Shown: piece after piece, positions 43,675-52,572 of the stretch | Layout: every line of letters begins with the position of its first letter | Numbering within the stretch: position 1 is the stretch's first letter | NCBI GenBank assembly: GCA_023265995.1 | Contig: JAHFSA010000005.1 | Span: 1 to 64,000 of the forward strand | Length of the DNA stretch: 64,000 bases | DNA from: Perlucidibaca sp. | GTDB taxonomy: Bacteria; Pseudomonadota; Gammaproteobacteria; Pseudomonadales; Moraxellaceae | Direction: 5' to 3' | Notes under the pieces: generated by a model | Told to the model about the DNA's origin: nothing | The model's input: the letters and a program-made list of their open reading frames with translations, nothing else | The model's database searches: none | Position numbers and translations under genes: made by a program

Positions 43675-44172
43675 CTACCTGAGCATGGCCTCCAGACGCT
43701 CGCCATCGCCGCTGCGGAAGCCGAGATGCGACCAGCGCAGCCGGCCGTCGGCGCCGATCAGGAAGGAACTGGGCATGCCCTGCAGCTGATAGCGCGCCGC
43801 CGTCCGGCCGCCGGCATCGAAGAGCACGGTGAAACCGGCCGGATGCTGACGCAGGAACTCGGCGGCGGCGGCCGGATCCTCATCGACATTGACCGCCAGC
43901 ACCGTCAGCTTGTCGTGGCCGATACGCTGCTGCAGCGTGTTCATCCACGGGAAGGTCTGCCGGCAGGGACCGCACCAGCTGGCCCAGAAATCGAGATAGA
44001 CCTGGCGGCCGCGCAGCGAGGCCAGCGTCACCGTGCGGCCCTGGCTGTCCTTGAGGGCGAAATCGGGGGCCGGATCGCCACGCGAGAACACCTGCGCCTG
44101 CGCCGGCAGCAGCCAGGCCAGCAGGAGCAGGCTCGCGCAGATGCCCAGCCATGGGTTTGCCTGCCTTGTCAT
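43675..44172 (-). CDS. TlpA-like periplasmic thiol-disulfide oxidoreductase
   Basis: A 165-residue thioredoxin-fold protein with a signal peptide (about 1-27). The redox motif is WCGPC (Cys67, Cys70), and the cis-Pro lies in GMPSSFLI. Such proteins keep cysteines reduced for cytochrome c assembly or other exported proteins. GGAGAGG precedes the ATG at 44172. It is the last of the DUF4266-DUF3570-ApbE-TlpA operon, and could serve the haem lipoproteins or the cysteines of the DUF4266 protein nearby. Confidence 0.9.
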   Translation of the reverse strand: MTRQANPWLGICASLLLLAWLLPAQAQVFSRGDPAPDFALKDSQGRTVTLASLRGRQVYLDFWASWCGPCRQTFPWMNTLQQRIGHDKLTVLAVNVDEDPAAAAEFLRQHPAGFTVLFDAGGRTAARYQLQGMPSSFLIGADGRLRWSHLGFRSGDGERLEAMLR

Positions 44173-44189: not shown

Positions 44190-45098
44190 TCATGCCGCCA
44201 GCACGCCATGCAGGCTCAGGTCGGCCGCCACAGCCAGCCACGGGTGCGGACAGTCCGCCAGCCAGGCGCTCGCCTGATCGCCCTGCAACAGGCCCAGCGT
44301 GCAGACCGCGCCGGCCAGCAGGCATTGCGGCGCCGTCACGCTGAGACTGGCCAGGCCCGGCAGCGGCCAGCCGGTGCGGGCATCGAGAATGTGCGAATAA
44401 CGCCGACCATCAACCACCAGACAGCGCTCGTAATCGCCGCTGGTGGCCAGCCCGCCCTGCGTCAGCGCGATGCTGGCAATGGCCTGCTCCGGATCGCGCG
44501 GATGGCGGATGCCGACCAGCCAGGGGCTGCCATCCGCCTGCGGGCCAACCACGCTGATATCGCCACCCAGCTCGACCAGTCCGTGCGCCACCCCTGTGCC
44601 ACGTAGCACGGCAGCGGCGCGGTCGGCGGCGTACTCCTTGCCGAAGCCGCCGAAGTCCAGCTCCATGCCGACCAGCGGCAGCACGACGCGCTGGCCGCCA
44701 GCCGCCAACCGCTCACGACGCAGGCGGGACCAGCCCACGCGCGGCAGCAGCGCGGCCACCGCGGCGGCATCGGGCAGGTGCCCGGAACGGAAATCCCAGA
44801 CCTGCCGCAGCACGCCCGAGGTGGCGTCGAAACGACCCTCCGACTGCTCGTGCAGGGCCCCGGCAATGTCGAGCAGACTGGCGGTCTCGGCATCGACACA
44901 GACCCCCGCCGGATCGCCGGCGGAGGCATTGATGACGGCCACCACGCTGTCGTTGCGGTAGCGCGAATATTTCTGCTCGATGCGCCTCACCTCGGCCTCG
45001 GCCGCCGCGAAGGCGCGCCCGGCCACTGCCGCATCCGGGGCATGCAGGCGCAGGCTGCAGGGGCCGCCGAGGGCATGGAAGTGATGCTCATGCAGCAT
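44190..45098 (-). CDS. apbE: FAD:protein FMN transferase
   Basis: A 302-residue ApbE-family enzyme. Typical segments are RRIEQKYSRYRNDS, the FAD-binding ELDFGGFGKEYAAD, LVELGGDISVVG and the metal-binding YSHILDARTGWP. ApbE moves FMN from FAD onto Thr/Ser of exported target proteins. No leader or lipobox is obvious at the chosen start, so its compartment is uncertain. The next genes encode an outer-membrane-like DUF3570 protein and a small DUF4266 lipoprotein; no standard flavinylation motif (D-x2-T/S-G-A-T/S) is seen in either. Confidence 0.93.
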   Translation of the reverse strand: MLHEHHFHALGGPCSLRLHAPDAAVAGRAFAAAEAEVRRIEQKYSRYRNDSVVAVINASAGDPAGVCVDAETASLLDIAGALHEQSEGRFDATSGVLRQVWDFRSGHLPDAAAVAALLPRVGWSRLRRERLAAGGQRVVLPLVGMELDFGGFGKEYAADRAAAVLRGTGVAHGLVELGGDISVVGPQADGSPWLVGIRHPRDPEQAIASIALTQGGLATSGDYERCLVVDGRRYSHILDARTGWPLPGLASLSVTAPQCLLAGAVCTLGLLQGDQASAWLADCPHPWLAVAADLSLHGVLAA

Positions 45099-45102
45099 CG
45101 CG

Positions 45103-46281
45103 TCAGTAGTCCCGGGAAATCTGGACGTGGCCATTGAGCCAGGACACCAGGCCGGGGTTGGGCATGGCCACCGAGCCCAGCGCATAGTCCTCGCTGGCGC
45201 GATAGGCGCCGATGCCGCCACCCAGTCGCCAGAGCCCGATGCGCCGGCCGAGATCGAGGTTGGCGCCGAGGGCGCCATAGGGCGACAGGCGATAATCGCT
45301 GGAGGCGAGGCCGTCGCGGCGCGGCGCGGCATAGAACGGCGCGTAGAAATCGGCCTGGCTCTGCGAATACCAGCGCAGGCTGGCCGACCAGTCCCACAGG
45401 GTGTCCTGGCGATAGAGCCCGAGCGTGACGGTGTGCGCCTCGATCTGCCAGTCATCGCGGAAATAGCGGTAGTCGGCATGCAGCGCCAGGCCCGGTGTGT
45501 CGAAGCTGTGCCGGAACTGGGTCGCCAGTGTCACGCTGACACGACTGTCGGGACGGCTGTCGGCCACCGTGCTCGACGTGCCGGTGATGTAGGCGAGCTT
45601 GTAGGGGTCGCTGAGGAAGCCTTGCTGCCAGAGCGTGCTCAGCGTGACGCGGAACTGGTCGCGCGGCGTCAGCACCTGGATGACGCCGGCATAGAGCGAG
45701 GCGCCTTGCTTGTCGGCCTCGCGGATGCGATTGGGGTAGCGCGCGGAGCCGCCATCGGTGGGCTCGAGGCTATCATCGGAATAGCCCAGGCCGGCGGTGA
45801 CCGACTGCATGCCATCCCAGGCCTTGAGCTCGCCTTCGAGATTGAGCTGCAGGGAGCGGTAGTCCTCTTCCTGCGAATAGCCGGTGGACACATGCGCCGT
45901 GCCGCGCCGACCCCAGTCATGACGCCAGCCGGCCTCGATGGCATTGCGCACATCGCTGATGCTGGCGCCACTCATGACCTGCACCGGCCGTCCCTTCAGG
46001 TCCGGCATGACATACCAGGGCGAGGCGCCGCTCATGGTCTCGTGCGTGAGGTCGAGGCTGACGCCATCGCTGCCACCCAGAGGCTGGTTGAGACGGAACA
46101 GATGCGTGTCGACCTGGTAGCGCTCGCTGGCCTTGCCGCTGGCGCTCCTGGTCGCCGCCAGGTCAGACTCGCGATAATTGCCGTAGACGTATTCGACCGA
46201 GCCTTCCTCGGCCCGGGCCAGGCCGGTGGCGGAGAGCGCGAGAGGTGTCAGTGCCAGCAGCAGACCGGAAGATGTCTTCAT
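45103..46281 (-). CDS. DUF3570 protein, predicted outer-membrane beta-barrel
   Basis: A 392-residue exported protein with a signal peptide ending ARA-EEGS. The mature part is a run of amphipathic beta-strands (VEYVYGNY, VSLDLTHETMSGASPWY, HSFDTPGLALHADYRYF) and ends in an aromatic residue (HVQISRDY), as barrels do. The start at 46281 overlaps the DUF4266 stop by one base; the open frame runs 78 codons further upstream without family similarity. DUF3570 function is unknown, but it is regularly linked to DUF4266 and ApbE. It might be an outer-membrane channel or anchor. Confidence 0.88.
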   Translation of the reverse strand: MKTSSGLLLALTPLALSATGLARAEEGSVEYVYGNYRESDLAATRSASGKASERYQVDTHLFRLNQPLGGSDGVSLDLTHETMSGASPWYVMPDLKGRPVQVMSGASISDVRNAIEAGWRHDWGRRGTAHVSTGYSQEEDYRSLQLNLEGELKAWDGMQSVTAGLGYSDDSLEPTDGGSARYPNRIREADKQGASLYAGVIQVLTPRDQFRVTLSTLWQQGFLSDPYKLAYITGTSSTVADSRPDSRVSVTLATQFRHSFDTPGLALHADYRYFRDDWQIEAHTVTLGLYRQDTLWDWSASLRWYSQSQADFYAPFYAAPRRDGLASSDYRLSPYGALGANLDLGRRIGLWRLGGGIGAYRASEDYALGSVAMPNPGLVSWLNGHVQISRDY

Positions 46282-46508
46282 CAGTTGCACCCGCAGGCGC
46301 TGCCGCCGATGCCGTTGCCGCCACTGGCGGCTTCCTTGCTGACCTCGATGTGCTGCTGATAGCCGCCAGTCAGGGGATGCATGTCCCAGTCCATGGCCGG
46401 GCTGGCGAGATGAGCCCGCTGCCAGGGCTTGATCGGAGCCACCGTGCAGCCCGCCAGCGCCACCAGCAACACCGCGCTGGTCATCCGATATGCCGCCCTC
46501 ATGCCCAT
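46281..46508 (-). CDS. DUF4266 small lipoprotein
   Basis: A 75-residue protein with signal and lipobox LAGC (Cys21). The mature part holds the family signature PIKPWQRAHLASPAMDWD and an unusual Gly/Cys tail (GGNGIGGSACGCN) with two cysteines at the end. It is the first gene of the operon. The Gly-rich CGC tail might bind a metal or haem, or be modified; this is speculation. The promoter carries the TetR-type palindrome. Confidence 0.85.
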   Translation of the reverse strand: MGMRAAYRMTSAVLLVALAGCTVAPIKPWQRAHLASPAMDWDMHPLTGGYQQHIEVSKEAASGGNGIGGSACGCN

Positions 46509-46583: not shown

Positions 46584-46612
46584 AAAGTAACAAGTGTTAC
46601 ATAATTTCACAA
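46584..46612 (-). promoter_or_regulatory. Promoter of the DUF4266 operon with TetR-type operator in the spacer
   Basis: Read on the minus strand: TTGTGA (46612-46607), a 17-bp spacer, TACTTT (46589-46584). The palindrome GTAAC-N4-GTTAC (46587-46600) fills the spacer and touches the -10. The same arrangement stands before the first RoxA-like gene. The site is also 40 bases before the divergent TetR start, so it could repress both directions. Confidence 0.75.
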
Positions 46613-46640
46613 GATCGAACCCGTTACCGGATTGCCTCGC

Positions 46641-47282
46641 ATGACTTCCAGATTCATTGCCCGCACCCCTGTCCAGGAGCGTTCGCGCAACCGGGTCAGT
46701 CTCATTCTGCAGACCGCCGAGGCACTGCTGGTTGAGGTCGGCCTAGGCGACTTCTCCATACCGCTGCTGGCCGAGCGCCTGGACTCGCCGCGCGCGACCA
46801 TCTACAAGTTCTTCCCGACGCCCTATGCCCTGCTCAACGCGCTCGCCGAGCAACACCTGGCGGCGCTGGAACTGACCCTGCAGGAACAGGCCATGCTGGA
46901 GCTCCAGGCCCGGACGGAAATGGGCTGGCGCGAGGGCACGCGCAACATGATCAGCAACGCCGCCGCCTACTACCGTCAGCATCCTGCTGCCTGCATTCTG
47001 CTGCTCGGCGGTCATGCCACGGATGACAGTTTCCGGGCCATGGAATACACCATAACCTGCCTTGGCCGCCTCACCCGGCACATGCTGCAGCATGCCCGCA
47101 TCACCCTGCGCAGCAGCGCGCCCGACGAATGCGCGCTGGCCATAGAGTTCGGCACCACCTGCTTCCGCGTGTCCTATCTGCTGCACAAGGACATCACGCC
47201 GGAATACGTCGAGGCTGGTGCCGATGCCATGATTGCCTTCATCGAGAAGCGCGCCGGCCTGAGCCCGGAACCAGGCGCCTGA
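46641..47282 (+). CDS. TetR-family regulator, probable repressor of the DUF4266 operon and RoxA-like genes
   Basis: A 213-residue regulator. The helix-turn-helix IPLLAERLDSPRATIYKFF is at about 43-61, and the C-terminal ligand domain is helical. ATG 46641 (MTSRFIAR) is chosen over a TTG nine bases earlier. It lies between the DUF4266 operon (divergent) and the RoxA-like gene (convergent). Matching palindromes in front of all three units make it the obvious controller. Its ligand might be a substrate or product of the haem oxygenases; this is inference. Confidence 0.9.
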   Translation: MTSRFIARTPVQERSRNRVSLILQTAEALLVEVGLGDFSIPLLAERLDSPRATIYKFFPTPYALLNALAEQHLAALELTLQEQAMLELQARTEMGWREGTRNMISNAAAYYRQHPAACILLLGGHATDDSFRAMEYTITCLGRLTRHMLQHARITLRSSAPDECALAIEFGTTCFRVSYLLHKDITPEYVEAGADAMIAFIEKRAGLSPEPGA

Positions 47283-47326
47283 ACTGGCCGGGAGCGCAGG
47301 CTCTCCGCCTGCACTCCCGCATCCCG

Positions 47327-49759
47327 TCACAAGGTCTTCAGGTATTCAAGCAGCGCGCGGCGCTCGGCATCGGTGAGCACGGCCGTGAACTCGTGGCCCT
47401 TGTTGCCCTGGCTGTACATGCGTGTGTTGTAGATCTTGCGCTGCTCGATCTGGCTGCTGCCGACGACGGGCATGTTGGCCAGGTTCCAGAGCAGACCGCC
47501 ATTGCCGTAGACCGGGTTGAGCACATCCTGCATGGTCACGCCGGCGGCATCGTTCGGGGTGCAATCCAGGTAAGGCGTGGTGCCACCGCCACCACAGGCC
47601 AGTGCCTGATATTTCCAGCCCATGTGCTCGCGGTCATAGCCGGTGCTCAGGCTGTCGTCATAGCCCATGACCACCTTGCCGACCTGATCGGCACGCGCCA
47701 TCTTCGACTGACGGGTCCAGATCGGCTTGCGCTCGGAGGGCTTGAGCACCTCCCAGAGATTGGGCACGGAGCCGTTATGCAGGTACGGTGCCGTGGCCCA
47801 GACGCCATAGAGCGGCGGCGCCAGATAACCCAGCTTGCGGTCACCGCGCAGGGCCTTGTCATTCTGGTCGCCGCAGAGCGAGACACCCGCAGCATTCTTT
47901 TTCGTGTCGCTGTAGGCGAACCAGCTGTTGCGCGCAGCCTCGGACACGGTCTGGCTGTTGCCATCAAGACGGCGACTGTCGGTGCCTATGACCTCGATGG
48001 GCGTGATGTTGGCGGCCACACCTTCGAGCAGCGGCGTGCTCAGATAGGCCGGGTCATTCACGAAGCGCGGCGAATAGGCGCCATGACAGCTGGCGCAGGA
48101 ACCGTTGCCACCCTCCGGCTTGAGCACCGGGTTATGCAGGTTGTCGGCCCACAGGTTCTTGCTGTGGAAGAGAATGGCGCCCTGCTCGGCCAGCGCCTTG
48201 TCGATGCTGCCGAGACGGCTCTCCGGCCAGACCGGCGCGCGCAACGACATGATCCAGGCATCGCCATCCTGCTGATGATCGGTGATCCACTTCTGATCCG
48301 CCGCCATGTCCTGATGCACCGGCGCGTTGGGGAAATGGAAGGACAGCTCGATGCGCTTGGCATCCATGACCATGCCGCCATCGAAGAACTTGCCGGAGCG
48401 ATGCCCCACGTTCCACCACACGGGCGGATCTTCGGTGCCGGTCGAGGGCTGGTTCTGGATCGACATGTAGGAGGCGAGCTGGTCGGGATGGGTGACGAGA
48501 TCGCTCAGCACCAGCAGGCCGAAGAGCTGGAAGTTGGTGATGTTGCCGGTGCCACGGACCTTGTTCTGCGAAATCACCGCCAGCGCCGACTGCTGCGGGG
48601 CGATCATGCCCAGGTCGGTGAACATCAGGGTGATGTCGGACAGACTGTTGGTGCCATACATGGCGCCCAGGCCGGGACCGTCGGCCGGCGTGCCGACGCC
48701 GCCACCATGGCAGATGCTGCAGGTCACATTAAGCTTGCCGGTCCAGCTGCCGTCGGCATTGCGCAACTGGGTCAGGCCCATGGGCAGCTGACCGGAGCCG
48801 CCGTGGGTCTTGTTGGGATCTTCACCAGCCAGCGGGTAGGGGTTGCGCGTCGGCGACAGCGGCATGCCCCAGCGCTCGGCCACCAGCTGATCGTAGTTGT
48901 CAGGGCGCGCCGACAGCTGCCAGATACGCTGCCACATGATGTTGTAGTCCGAAGCCGGGAGCGTGTAGTTCGACTGCGCGGCATCGCCCGAGAACAAGCT
49001 GCCGGCGCCGACCTGACCAGCGCTGGCCACCAGCGGGTAGCCACGCGCAACGCGCTTGCGCAGCTCGCCACAAGTGCCGGGATGATCGTCCGCCTGGCAG
49101 GTCTGCCAGTAGGCGTTCATGTGCACGGCCTTGCCCTCGCTCACACCGGGCACCACCAGCTCGCGCGGGTCCTGGGGCAGCACGGCGTCATCGCCCTTGT
49201 CGGCGCAATAGTCGAACCAGTAGTGACCACCATGCTTGCTGCCCAGCAGAGACAGCGGCTCGGTTGTCGTGCTGCTGTTGCCGAGCAGGGCCGCGCAGCC
49301 ATTCGGATCGGCGAAGCACTTGAGCAGGATGTCCATGTTCCGGTAGGCGGCGCTGTCCCTGGGCCAGGGCGCGCCGCCGGAGTGCGGGGTTTCCTGCCCG
49401 GATGCCATGAGCAGGATGCGCGAGGTCGGGTTGTTCATGCCCAGGCGTTCCCAGCTCGCCCTCAGATTGGCCAGGTCCTGCGCCTTGTTGCCCGACAGCA
49501 TGAAGTCGCGACCCTTGTCGGTGTCGGCGAGGCCGGCCGGCACGTGGCAGGTCCGGCAGAAGTCCATGTTCGGCTGCACGTTTTGCGTGAAGTGCTCATC
49601 CATGGTTCGTGCCGACGAGGGCGTGGAGTCGCCCGGCTGCGCTGGATGCCCGGAGGTCGAGCTGGCCGAGGTGCTGCCGGCCGAGCCATCGTAGCTGCCG
49701 CCACAGGCGGCCAGCAGCAGTGGGAGGAACACCACAAGAAGTCGGGAACGGTTGAACAT
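47327..49759 (-). CDS. RoxA/RoxB-like triheme c-type lipoprotein (copy 1)
   Basis: An 810-residue exported lipoprotein (lipobox LAAC, Cys19) with three haem sites: CRTCH at 68-72, CSICH at 347-351 and CASCH at 555-559. The last is followed by GAYSPRFVNDPAYL and later GYLAPPLYGVWATAPYLHNGSVP, which match my memory of rubber oxygenases RoxA/RoxB; PVWWNVGHRSGKFFDGG also fits the dihaem family. Known RoxA has two haems and no lipid anchor, so the N-terminal haem domain and anchor differ. GAGAGG precedes the ATG at 49759. Activity on polyisoprene or other unsaturated polymers is inference. Confidence 0.8.
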   Translation of the reverse strand: MFNRSRLLVVFLPLLLAACGGSYDGSAGSTSASSTSGHPAQPGDSTPSSARTMDEHFTQNVQPNMDFCRTCHVPAGLADTDKGRDFMLSGNKAQDLANLRASWERLGMNNPTSRILLMASGQETPHSGGAPWPRDSAAYRNMDILLKCFADPNGCAALLGNSSTTTEPLSLLGSKHGGHYWFDYCADKGDDAVLPQDPRELVVPGVSEGKAVHMNAYWQTCQADDHPGTCGELRKRVARGYPLVASAGQVGAGSLFSGDAAQSNYTLPASDYNIMWQRIWQLSARPDNYDQLVAERWGMPLSPTRNPYPLAGEDPNKTHGGSGQLPMGLTQLRNADGSWTGKLNVTCSICHGGGVGTPADGPGLGAMYGTNSLSDITLMFTDLGMIAPQQSALAVISQNKVRGTGNITNFQLFGLLVLSDLVTHPDQLASYMSIQNQPSTGTEDPPVWWNVGHRSGKFFDGGMVMDAKRIELSFHFPNAPVHQDMAADQKWITDHQQDGDAWIMSLRAPVWPESRLGSIDKALAEQGAILFHSKNLWADNLHNPVLKPEGGNGSCASCHGAYSPRFVNDPAYLSTPLLEGVAANITPIEVIGTDSRRLDGNSQTVSEAARNSWFAYSDTKKNAAGVSLCGDQNDKALRGDRKLGYLAPPLYGVWATAPYLHNGSVPNLWEVLKPSERKPIWTRQSKMARADQVGKVVMGYDDSLSTGYDREHMGWKYQALACGGGGTTPYLDCTPNDAAGVTMQDVLNPVYGNGGLLWNLANMPVVGSSQIEQRKIYNTRMYSQGNKGHEFTAVLTDAERRALLEYLKTL

Positions 49760-49782
49760 GGGTGCCTCTCTGATCAGTCGCA

Positions 49783-49827
49783 TCACCACAGCGTCTTCAA
49801 GCATGAAATCAAGGCTCGACGCTCCAG
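49783..49827 (-). pseudogene. Relic of the 3' end of a third RoxA-like gene
   Basis: On the minus strand this reads LERRALISCLKTLW and then a stop, closely matching LERRALIEYLKTL at the very end of copy 2. Over 36 bases (49789-49824 against 49996-50031) 31 are identical. It lies in the leader between the promoter and the start of copy 1, where no coding sequence is expected. Confidence 0.65.
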
Positions 49828-49832
49828 CGCAA

Positions 49833-49861
49833 AAAGTAACAATAGTTACCATTTCTGTCAA
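49833..49861 (-). promoter_or_regulatory. Promoter of RoxA-like copy 1 with TetR-type operator in the spacer
   Basis: On the minus strand: a perfect TTGACA (49861-49856), a 17-bp spacer and TACTTT (49838-49833). The palindrome GTAAC-N4-GTTAC occupies 49836-49849. Spacing, -10 and operator position are the same as in the DUF4266 operon promoter. The remainder of 49760-49992 holds only the relic and AT-rich DNA. Confidence 0.8.
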
Positions 49862-49992
49862 ACACATGCCCGGCATGCGATCAACGTGGTATCGCGCATG
49901 CCAGGAACGGATAAAAAAGCGCCAGCCAAAGGTCGGCGCAATGGTTCCACATTTCAGCCCGCCAGACTCCTCCGGCAACAAACCCGAGCGAG

Positions 49993-52485
49993 TTACAGCG
50001 TCTTCAAGTATTCGATCAAGGCTCGGCGCTCAAGGTCGGTCAGGTGCCTGGTGAAGTCATGACCCTGATTGCCCTTCCCGAAGCGGCGGGTATTGACGAC
50101 CTTGCGGGTTTCAACCGTCGCGCGCGTCAGCGGCGGCGTGACCTGGTAGCCCAGCGAGTTGAAGCCCGCCGGGAAATTCTGCAGCTTGATCAGCAAGTCC
50201 TCGAGCGGTCGCAGCGGCTCGGTCGTTTCACAGGAAGCATAGGCACCCGTCCCGCAGCTCATGGAGGTGAACTTCCAGCCCAGACGCTGCTGGTCATAGG
50301 CAGCCATGGAGGTATCGAAGCCATGCTCGCTGCCCTCGCCCTGCGTCAGCTGGCGACGCCAGACTGCCGGCCGCTCTCCGGGCTTGAGCAGGCTCCAGAT
50401 ATCCGGCACGGAGCCATTGTGCAGATACGGTGCCGTCGCCCAGATGCCGTGCAGCGGAGGCGCCAGATAGCCGACCAAATCCTTGGGCAGCGTGCCCTGC
50501 CAGGTGCATGCACCCTTTACACGCGCGCCGGGGGTGAAGATGCCCATGTCATCCGCGGTTTCCTGCAGCGCATTCTTCTGCTCCGGCTTCACATAGCCCG
50601 GGGCACCTTCCGGATAGGAGAACCAGGAAGTGCTCATCAGCTCCAGCAGCGGACGCGTGAAACCTTTCAAACGCGCGGGGTCGGTACGGATCTGGTCGAT
50701 CGGCGCGATATAGCCCGCCATGCCCTCCAGACGCGGCGTGTCCAGATAGCGCGGGTCGTTGACGTAGCGCGGTGCATACGCCCCGTGGCAACCGGCACAT
50801 GAGCCATTGGTTGGCGGCCGGGGGATATCGGCATTGGCGCCATTCGCCCAGAGATCCTTGGCATGGAACAGCACGGCACCCTCTTCTGCCAGGGCCGTAT
50901 CGATGTGACCCGGATACGAGGGTGACTGCAGCGATTCGATGTAGGCCTGCACATCCAGGCTGTGGGCCTCGGTGATCTCGCGCATCTTCTTGCCGGCGCC
51001 GACGCCCTCGAACGGCGTCAGGGCCAGCAGGATGGCGCTGTCGATGCGCATGGCGTCATAGGAATAGCCGGCATCCCAGAACTTGCGCGGCCTGTGACTG
51101 GCATTCCACCAGGCTGGCATCTTGGTATCGCCCGAGCCGGTGGTATTGGTCGGCGTCTGCAACCCCACGACCTTGGCCGCCATCCCGACCGGATTGAAGT
51201 CCAGCGTGTCGGCATCGACCAGTCCGATCAGGAAGCCGGACAGCCCCATGGCATTGGTGACGCCGCGGCTGCTGTTGAGGCCGATGGGGAGCCCCGGCAG
51301 CAGGGCATCGGAAAGCAGCAGCTGAAGGTCGGCATTGTGCGCACCCAGACCGGACACGAAGCCGGGACTGGCCGTCGTCGCCAGGCTTTTCAACTCACCG
51401 GCATGACAGGCGTCACAGGTGGGTGACAGCATGCCGTTGTAGCGGCCATTGGCATCCTTGCTCTGCACCAGGCCGGCCGGCAGCTGGCCCGATCCGCCGT
51501 TCGACGTGGCCGGATCCTCACCAGGCAGCGGATAGGGATTGTTGAACGGTGCCTTCGGCAGACCATAGCGCTCGCGCACCTGCTCGTCGAAGTTCGCCGG
51601 GCGCGAAGTCAGCCCCCAGCGCGTCCACATGGCGTTGTACAAATCCCTGGGGATGATGCCCGAACCATGGAATTTCATGGCCAGGTCGGTACGGATCAGC
51701 TTCTCGCCCGCAGCCTTGCGGACACGGTATTCGCCGCAGGTCGCGGGCTTGCGCAGCGGGTTGTTGCTCGGCCCGGCGCAGTCCTGCCAGTAGGCATTGA
51801 AGGCCACGCTCTTGCCGGCATTGACGCCGGGACGCACCAGCTCGCGCGGATCCTGCGGCAGGATCGTGGCATCGGACTGGCCTTCGCAGAACGCATCCAT
51901 GTAGGAGCGGGCATGACTGCTGCCGAGCAGGGGCAGCAGTTCGGGGGCGGTCGTGCCGGAATCGAGAAGACTGGTGCAGCCTGCCGGATCAGCGAAACAC
52001 TTGATGACGATCTCGGCACTCTTGTACGCCGCGCTGTCCTGCGGCCAGGGCGCGCCGCCGGTATGCGACTCCTGACCCGAGGCCATAAGCAGGATGCGGG
52101 AATTGATGCCGCCGCCCAGGCGCTCCCAACTGGCCCTGAAGTTGCTGAAGTCCTGAGCCTTGTCGGCACTCAGCATGAACTTGCGACCCTTGTCCTGATC
52201 CGCCAGGCCACCAGGCACATGACAGGTCCGGCAATGACCCAGACCCGGTTGCACACTCTGCGCGAAGTACTCGTCAACGGTACGCACCGACGTGGACGTG
52301 GAATTGCCCTGCTCATCCGTCTGCTGCCCGCCCTGCTGATCCTGGCCCGCCGGCTGACCGCCCTGCTGCGCGCCAGCGGCATCGGGCCCGCTCGCGCTGC
52401 CGCCAAGGCTGCCATTGCCACTGCCGCCGCAGGCACTCAACAACAGCGCCAATGTGAGCGATGGCGCGAGAACGAGAAGGCGCAT
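49993..52485 (-). CDS. RoxA/RoxB-like triheme c-type lipoprotein (copy 2)
   Basis: An 830-residue paralogue of copy 1: lipobox LSAC (Cys19), a Gly/Gln-rich linker (about 20-66), and haem sites CRTCH at 85-89, CDACH at 357-361 and CAGCH at 563-567. The last is followed by GAYAPRYVNDPRYLDTP and later GYLAPPLHGIWATAPYLHNGSVP. The central part (about 370-450) is clearly divergent from copy 1, so substrate or partner may differ. GGAGAG precedes the ATG at 52485; the open frame extends upstream without signal sequence. It is expected outside the cytoplasm, tethered to a membrane. Confidence 0.8.
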   Translation of the reverse strand: MRLLVLAPSLTLALLLSACGGSGNGSLGGSASGPDAAGAQQGGQPAGQDQQGGQQTDEQGNSTSTSVRTVDEYFAQSVQPGLGHCRTCHVPGGLADQDKGRKFMLSADKAQDFSNFRASWERLGGGINSRILLMASGQESHTGGAPWPQDSAAYKSAEIVIKCFADPAGCTSLLDSGTTAPELLPLLGSSHARSYMDAFCEGQSDATILPQDPRELVRPGVNAGKSVAFNAYWQDCAGPSNNPLRKPATCGEYRVRKAAGEKLIRTDLAMKFHGSGIIPRDLYNAMWTRWGLTSRPANFDEQVRERYGLPKAPFNNPYPLPGEDPATSNGGSGQLPAGLVQSKDANGRYNGMLSPTCDACHAGELKSLATTASPGFVSGLGAHNADLQLLLSDALLPGLPIGLNSSRGVTNAMGLSGFLIGLVDADTLDFNPVGMAAKVVGLQTPTNTTGSGDTKMPAWWNASHRPRKFWDAGYSYDAMRIDSAILLALTPFEGVGAGKKMREITEAHSLDVQAYIESLQSPSYPGHIDTALAEEGAVLFHAKDLWANGANADIPRPPTNGSCAGCHGAYAPRYVNDPRYLDTPRLEGMAGYIAPIDQIRTDPARLKGFTRPLLELMSTSWFSYPEGAPGYVKPEQKNALQETADDMGIFTPGARVKGACTWQGTLPKDLVGYLAPPLHGIWATAPYLHNGSVPDIWSLLKPGERPAVWRRQLTQGEGSEHGFDTSMAAYDQQRLGWKFTSMSCGTGAYASCETTEPLRPLEDLLIKLQNFPAGFNSLGYQVTPPLTRATVETRKVVNTRRFGKGNQGHDFTRHLTDLERRALIEYLKTL

Positions 52486-52529
52486 GAGACTCTCCGGTCT
52501 TTCGGGCGGCAGCTTGGCTGCCCCAATTA

Positions 52530-52572
52530 GTAACTTATGTTGCCTTTTAAGGCAGGACCGGTCATTTGTCAA
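52530..52572 (-). promoter_or_regulatory. Promoter and operator-like palindrome of RoxA-like copy 2
   Basis: On the minus strand a perfect TTGACA (52572-52567) is followed after 17 bp by TAAAAG (52549-52544). GTAAC-N4-GTTGC (52530-52543), one mismatch from the shared palindrome, lies just beyond the -10. The operator is thus shifted by about 20 bp compared with the other two promoters. Confidence 0.6.

Follow-up and report, generated by a model that had tools for sequence, protein, structure and literature searches.

The window analyzed here, a 64,000-nucleotide stretch from Perlucidibaca sp. (contig JAHFSA010000005.1), carries a block of ~9 kb (43.7-52.5 kb) composed of a DUF4266-DUF3570-ApbE-TlpA operon on the minus strand, a tetR gene on the plus strand and two genes of the rubber oxygenase (Rox) family, roxB and roxC, on the minus strand. 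With moderate confidence, this block is read as a TetR regulon of rubber-oxygenase-family enzymes possessing their own extracytosolic redox module, which would feed electrons to the surface Rox proteins. Sequence comparisons give good support to both the predicted regulon and the predicted partnership between the Rox proteins and the module, and the adjacency of these genes in many other bacteria suggests that the flavin-thiol set powers or matures the Rox enzymes. A first-pass annotation of the DNA alone had proposed that one TetR palindrome ties these genes into a single regulon with a joint function; the gene families it named have been borne out by Pfam and NCBIfam profile searches.

Association of rox genes with the flavin/thiol module

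The partnership is supported first by co-occurrence in two sampled orders. In the order of the window, 390 genomes were searched, rox being accepted at E values up to 1e-60 with a maximum of two rox scored per genome, and the rox and DUF4266 searches (390 genomes each) were taken as covering the same genome set. While rox was found in 22 genomes and DUF4266 in 141, the latter was present in 21 of the 22 rox genomes versus 120 of the 368 others; the rox genome devoid of it (G384) was rechecked. Similarly, in the order of Solimonas fluminis (rox in 30 and DUF4266 in 45 of 85 genomes), DUF4266 accompanied rox in 29 of 30 genomes versus 16 of the 55 others, and the rox match of the remaining rox genome, G426, is partial. 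The corresponding Fisher p values are 3e-9 and 4e-10, uncorrected for kinship: each genome counts as independent, despite clustering by family.

The two gene kinds are also close to each other. In the second order, a rox-DUF4266 pair was found within 10 kb in 17 of the 30 rox genomes (0.83 expected at random) and within 30 kb in 21, including G414 (17 kb). The proximity claim rests on these distance counts and not on the 37 clusters which were mapped, as the latter were picked for their nearness to rox or because they came from a named rox genome, with crude starts of their open reading frames (ORFs). Within this chosen set, rox lies in the stretch read in 33 clusters, on the same strand in 32 of these and within 250 bp in 21 (the rox of L103 is frame-disturbed and that of L181 is cut by a contig end). 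Several arrangements recur: RoxC-TlpA-DUF4266-DUF3570-ApbE in G093, G151, G198, G238, G258 and G278; TlpA-DUF4266-DUF3570-Rox in G456, G458 and G464; TetR-TlpA-DUF4266-DUF3570-ApbE-RoxC in G415; and rox on both sides of the module in G217 and G236. Such contiguous Rox/TlpA/DUF4266/DUF3570(/ApbE) clusters, occurring in the two orders, support the proposed joint function, and gene neighbourhood thus supports that the TlpA/DUF4266/DUF3570/ApbE module works with the Rox proteins.

In a quick tree built from 56 Rox proteins, all from the first order or the named genomes, the flavin-linked three-haem label requires 7 changes, and the link is therefore unlikely to be a single inherited neighbourhood; judging from this tree, it probably arose or was lost several times. 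In the first order, 15 genomes have a three-haem rox, and in 14 of these the same contig carries DUF4266 at no more than 30 kb; of the 7 genomes whose rox are all of the two-haem kind, 1 does (p 6e-4). This tally was made by hand, contig breaks may hide neighbours, and haem number was read for only one of the two rox of G176 and of G346. A strict rule equating the third haem with the flavin module was rejected, since two-haem rox adjoin the module elsewhere, and only a trend is retained.

Two related clusters, L071 and L075, have as neighbours acyl-CoA dehydrogenases, an AMP ligase, a P450, Zn-alcohol dehydrogenases and a nitronate monooxygenase, which fit catabolism of cleavage products. At another locus (L005, 15883-19824), DUF1302 and DUF1329 genes, possibly involved in envelope lipid handling, follow a Solimonas rox.

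Palindrome, promoters and TetR covariation

Throughout the genome (2.64 Mb in 11 contigs, 99.89% complete), the exact palindrome GTAAC-N4-GTTAC occurs twice, only at the two sites of this locus named by the first-pass annotation, with ~0.8 sites expected from the base composition of the window and 7 exact sites for the same pattern read backwards. Allowing one mismatch adds 9 genome sites, among them that of roxC, versus 130 for the backwards control, and none of 100 shuffles gave three matches (two exact and one with a mismatch) as found at the locus. Read on the minus strand, the palindrome was located, as claimed, in the spacers of the DUF4266 and roxB promoters with its right arm running into the -10, and the tetR start was likewise confirmed 40 bases past it (ATG at 46641, with an in-frame TTG also at 46632). 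For roxC, the one-mismatch palindrome does stand at a TTGACA promoter, but it lies downstream of the -10 (TAAAAG) and not in the spacer. The -10 TACTTT agrees with the consensus at only 3 of 6 positions. A consensus promoter scan listed none of the three proposed promoters (DUF4266, roxB and roxC) and listed instead CTGGCA-18-CATAAT, pointing toward tetR across the first palindrome.

TetR homologues (39-56% identity) adjoin rox in all five rox loci of the named genomes, i.e., Solimonas fluminis (two loci), Solimonas SE-A11, a Solimonas metagenome-assembled genome and Spongiibacter thalassae. Upstream of TetR, rox and flavin genes, WAC-N4-GTW was found 33 times in 23.2 kb, versus 4.4 expected at the rate of the remaining 624 kb of these loci; orthologous copies were scored separately, and L098, L101-L105 and L108 were left out (L101-L105 being read separately). 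A comparison of recognition helix and operator over 21 TetR genes revealed that the PRAT helix goes with AAC-N4-GTT in 3 of 3 cases (the window and two close Solimonas copies), TRAS/TRTS helices with TAC-N4-GTA in 9 of 9, and the TRGS helix with GAC-N4-GTC in 3 of 5 by script and one more by eye, while none of the four TRRS, SRRS or SRAS helices showed an operator dyad. Shuffle p values for the dyad are modest in places (0.10 for L076 and L079, 0.04 for L075), and the operator of L176 was assigned by eye only.

In G463, the dyad occupies the divergent junction between tetR and a TlpA-DUF4266-DUF3570-Rox run. Likewise, in G217, it begins 67 bases ahead of the called start of a rox-TlpA-DUF4266-DUF3570-ApbE-rox-rox-rox run, and a nearby tetR carries the same dyad type as this flavin-containing run. 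In G468 (L182), a dyad ahead of one rox falls within the rox gene that comes before it and was not counted as a promoter site. The exact palindrome was not found at other loci, whereas a covarying AC-N4-GT version is present there. Collectively, tetR beside rox and the covariation of helix and operator lend support to a single regulon and to the predicted recognition of an AC-N4-GT palindrome by TetR. The predicted operator logic is not unique to this locus, but it is rare at flavin promoters.

Rox proteins, module genes and distribution of the block

The two haem proteins, first labelled RoxA-like, indeed belong to the Rox family, with their specific identity corrected by NCBIfam to RoxB for copy 1 (NF050034, 952 bits for a cut-off of 900) and to RoxC for copy 2 (NF051462, 995 bits for a cut-off of 900). 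Based on an alignment to RoxA (PDB 4b2n), the position of F317 is kept in RoxB as F475 and replaced in RoxC by I484, while that of W302 is F in RoxB and W469 in RoxC. RoxC thus combines the loss of F317 with a lipobox (LSAC) and an N-terminal CRTCH at residue 85 as its third CXXCH. The RoxB and RoxC proteins described from Gram-negative bacteria (Prakash et al., 2024; PMC10837239) have the same haem motifs, including the MauG motif seen here, and their RoxC shares the lipobox and the third N-terminal haem with that of the window; in contrast to the RoxB of that study, copy 1, a RoxB by score, possesses both features too. AlphaFold gave no usable model of DUF3570 (one sequence, predicted local distance difference test, pLDDT, of 29) or of RoxC (13 sequences, pLDDT 48).

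Table 1. Features of the block, with positions in the window.
Feature	Position	Strand	Evidence
TlpA/ResA-like exported thioredoxin, CGPC at residue 67	43675..44172	-	Pfam Redoxin 2.1e-24
ApbE, flavin mononucleotide (FMN) transferase	44190..45098	-	Pfam ApbE 1.8e-67
DUF3570, signal-like N-terminus, two SGAS motifs (residues 84, 104)	45103..46281	-	Pfam DUF3570 2.2e-54
DUF4266, 75 aa, lipobox-like LAGC, C-terminal CGCN (CXC motif)	46281..46508	-	Pfam DUF4266 2.5e-17
Proposed DUF4266 operon promoter TTGTGA-17-TACTTT, palindrome in spacer	46584..46612	-	Read from sequence
Exact palindrome GTAACAAGTGTTAC, putative operator between tetR and DUF4266 operon	46587..46600		Pattern search
TetR-family regulator, recognition helix SPRATIYKFF	46641..47282	+	Pfam TetR_N 8.6e-07, 29.1 bits (cut-off 24)
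RoxB (copy 1), three CXXCH, lipobox, PYLHNGSVP	47327..49759	-	NCBIfam RoxB
Proposed roxB promoter TTGACA-17-TACTTT	49833..49861	-	Read from sequence
Exact palindrome, putative operator in roxB promoter spacer	49836..49849		Pattern search
RoxC (copy 2), three CXXCH, lipobox	49993..52485	-	NCBIfam RoxC
One-mismatch putative operator (GCAACATAAGTTAC on the minus strand), just downstream of proposed roxC -10	52530..52543		
Proposed roxC promoter TTGACA-17-TAAAAG	52544..52572	-	Read from sequence

A third Rox is encoded in the same genome (L097, 8801-11245; contig C1, ~85.8-88.2 kb; NF050034, 974 bits). Within 19 kb, neither TetR nor the flavin genes have a homologue, and upstream of this rox WAC-N4-GTW is absent and a GTATC-N4-GATAC repeat is found instead. 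Elsewhere, a 1808-aa ORF containing four CXXCH motifs, which looks like a tandem pair of Rox units, lies just downstream of a flavin cluster (L099, 9930-15356), and G413 has a similar frame of 1885 aa. Large paralogue expansions are seen in G038, G040, G413, G438 and G462, with 9 to 11 Rox matches per genome, some of them partial. Apparent Rox-thioredoxin fusions in L177 and L178 (1246 and 1319 aa) were rejected as N-terminal ORF extensions in which Pfam shows no thioredoxin domain.

Within the module, both SGAS motifs of DUF3570 fit the [S/T]GA[S/T] flavinylation motif (Meheust et al., 2021; PMC8238504), and the Pfam matches of TlpA are Redoxin, AhpC-TSA and Thioredoxin_8, not PF13899, the thioredoxin-like family named in that study. 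The C-terminus of DUF4266 reads GGSACGCN, while relatives have GGGGCGC followed by N or Y (18 of 18 in a first set, 13 of 19 in a second). DsbD is absent from the cluster, the single DsbD_TM match of the genome being on another contig (C6).

Searches of the six other genomes of the genus gave no rox and no DUF3570, so that the block is present in one of seven. G001, G002 and G006 retain both the ftsY-ftsE-ftsX-rpoH-DUF423 run and thiG, which flank the block here, and G004 retains DUF456 and thiG; in none of the four does a gene of the block lie in between, the interval being occupied by other genes of varying length. In G005, thiG is followed shortly by the contig end, and no match to thiG was obtained in G003. 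From these comparisons, the block appears to have been acquired or differentially kept within the genus.

Proposed electron supply, alternatives and known systems

In the proposed mechanism, TetR would repress its own gene, the flavin/thiol operon, roxB and roxC until the arrival of an effector, possibly an isoprenoid or a lipid/fatty-acid-like product. ApbE would attach FMN to DUF3570, which we take to be an outer-membrane barrel. TlpA, presumably recharged with electrons by DsbD, would reduce the CXC thiols of the lipoprotein DUF4266, which in turn would reduce the two covalent FMN of DUF3570. The latter may then hand electrons to the haems of the surface-anchored Rox lipoproteins, where they would keep the active haem ferrous, in an oxygenase, or feed a peroxidase-like reaction. 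More tentatively, RoxC-type proteins may be outer-membrane enzymes which need outside electrons, relayed across the periplasm from thioredoxin through the CXC lipoprotein to the barrel carrying covalent flavin.

Several observations weigh against an electron-feeding module under common TetR control, starting with the enzymes themselves: RoxA and RoxB cleave rubber without added reductant. As isolated, RoxA is dioxygen-bound and RoxB ferric (PMC6311187). Across both orders, 136 of 186 DUF4266 genomes have no rox, and the module therefore has other partners; G462 has 10 rox matches for one DUF4266, and 7 of these 10 lie beyond 30 kb from it. A third haem is not a requirement for the link, since two-haem rox are found next to the module in G217, G236 and G475. 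Outside this genome, flavin-operon promoters with the operator were seen in G217, G463 and, by eye, G464 only, and in the Solimonas genomes G038-G040 the flavin cluster stands apart from rox with no AC-N4-GT dyad upstream. Finally, no signal peptide was recognisable by eye in ApbE of the window or in those of 17 related mapped loci, which is odd for an enzyme modifying an exported protein.

The strongest rival, serious although we judge it unlikely, is that the module matures Rox or protects its haem-cysteine sites: TlpA and DUF4266 would hold the cysteines of the CXXCH motifs in reduced form for haem attachment, or mend disulfides, flavin being part of the reducing chain. In fact, TlpA matches, with scores below the cut-offs, NCBIfam models of ResA/DsbE type, families which serve cytochrome c maturation, and each three-haem Rox has six haem cysteines, plus others. 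However, a general pathway of that kind serves other cytochromes, and the covalent attachment of flavin to an exported protein is indicative of onward electron transfer (PMC8238504). Less likely again is that RoxC acts not as an oxygenase but as a peroxidase on hydroperoxides of lipids or isoprenoids, the module being its electron donor in detoxification. This would agree with I484 at the F317 position, with a match to the di-haem peroxidase subfamily NF040606 (118 of 150 bits, under the cut-off) and with unpublished work, cited in PMC10837239, in which the RoxC proteins of two species failed to cleave rubber, whereas the same operator at RoxB, which keeps F317, and the catabolic neighbours of L075 and L071 argue against it. 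It is very improbable that the palindrome on the DUF4266 side is only an autoregulatory site of tetR, the flavin operon being co-regulated by accident and unrelated to rox: divergent tetR and DUF4266 do have one palindrome in common and the flavin promoter is without it in most other genomes read, but contiguous rox-flavin clusters occur in two orders, co-occurrence is far above background and the spacer geometry of the DUF4266 promoter is identical to that of roxB.

Regarding known systems, clusters of DUF4266, DUF3570, ApbE and thioredoxin genes, with or without DsbD, have been described as a recurrent flavinylation system whose purpose "remains uncertain", and flavinylation of DUF3570 by ApbE has been shown experimentally for Chlorobium (PMC8238504). 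This "DsbD system" has in common with the window all four gene kinds, the two [S/T]GA[S/T] motifs and the C-terminal CXC. The window cluster has no DsbD, like 316 clusters reported in the same study, and differs from that description by its tie to RoxB/RoxC and TetR. "Rubber" and "peroxidase" are absent from the main text of PMC8238504 (word search, supplements being outside its scope), as is "rubber" from two other flavinylation papers by word search (PMC12052999 and PMC10979944), and word searches of the main text of PMC10837239 returned no "regulat", "TetR", "ApbE" or "gene cluster". In line with the first-pass annotation, which knew of no such link, no prior description of a Rox-DUF4266/DUF3570 link was found in the literature searched, subscription papers and supplements being outside its scope.

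The nearest precedent for TetR control of rubber oxygenase genes is LcpR, which with related TetR regulators controls latex clearing protein (lcp) genes of Gram-positive bacteria (Gordonia, Streptomyces and Actinoplanes); as here, a tetR gene is tied to a rubber oxygenase gene, its product binding a palindrome-containing promoter (PMC7413915). As described, these systems differ by the Lcp enzyme family, the Gram-positive hosts and other operators. Similarly, an ApbE-family gene, the role of which was called unclear, adjoins lcp in Nocardia nova SH22a, with a similar situation in Gordonia VH2 (PMC9070631). As in the window, a flavin transferase-family gene is thus near a rubber oxygenase gene, yet the oxygenase is unrelated, and the passage concerned does not mention DUF3570 or DUF4266. 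In the lcp region of N. nova SH22a, flavinylation may have a parallel tie to a rubber oxygenase of an unrelated kind.

The partnership proposed here joins two questions, the role of RoxC, the function of which is called unknown in PMC10837239, and the purpose of DUF3570-based electron transfer (PMC8238504). Its conservation gives RoxC and DUF3570 each a testable partner and suggests that past RoxC assays may have lacked the reductant; supply of electrons by the module, if true, would explain the inactivity of purified RoxC alone. It also provides the rubber oxygenase genes of Gram-negative bacteria with a candidate regulator and a rule for its operators. If the proposed reading is true, it would provide a first function for RoxC and for DUF3570/DUF4266, as an extracellular oxygenase machinery driven by flavin and induced by way of its own TetR regulator.

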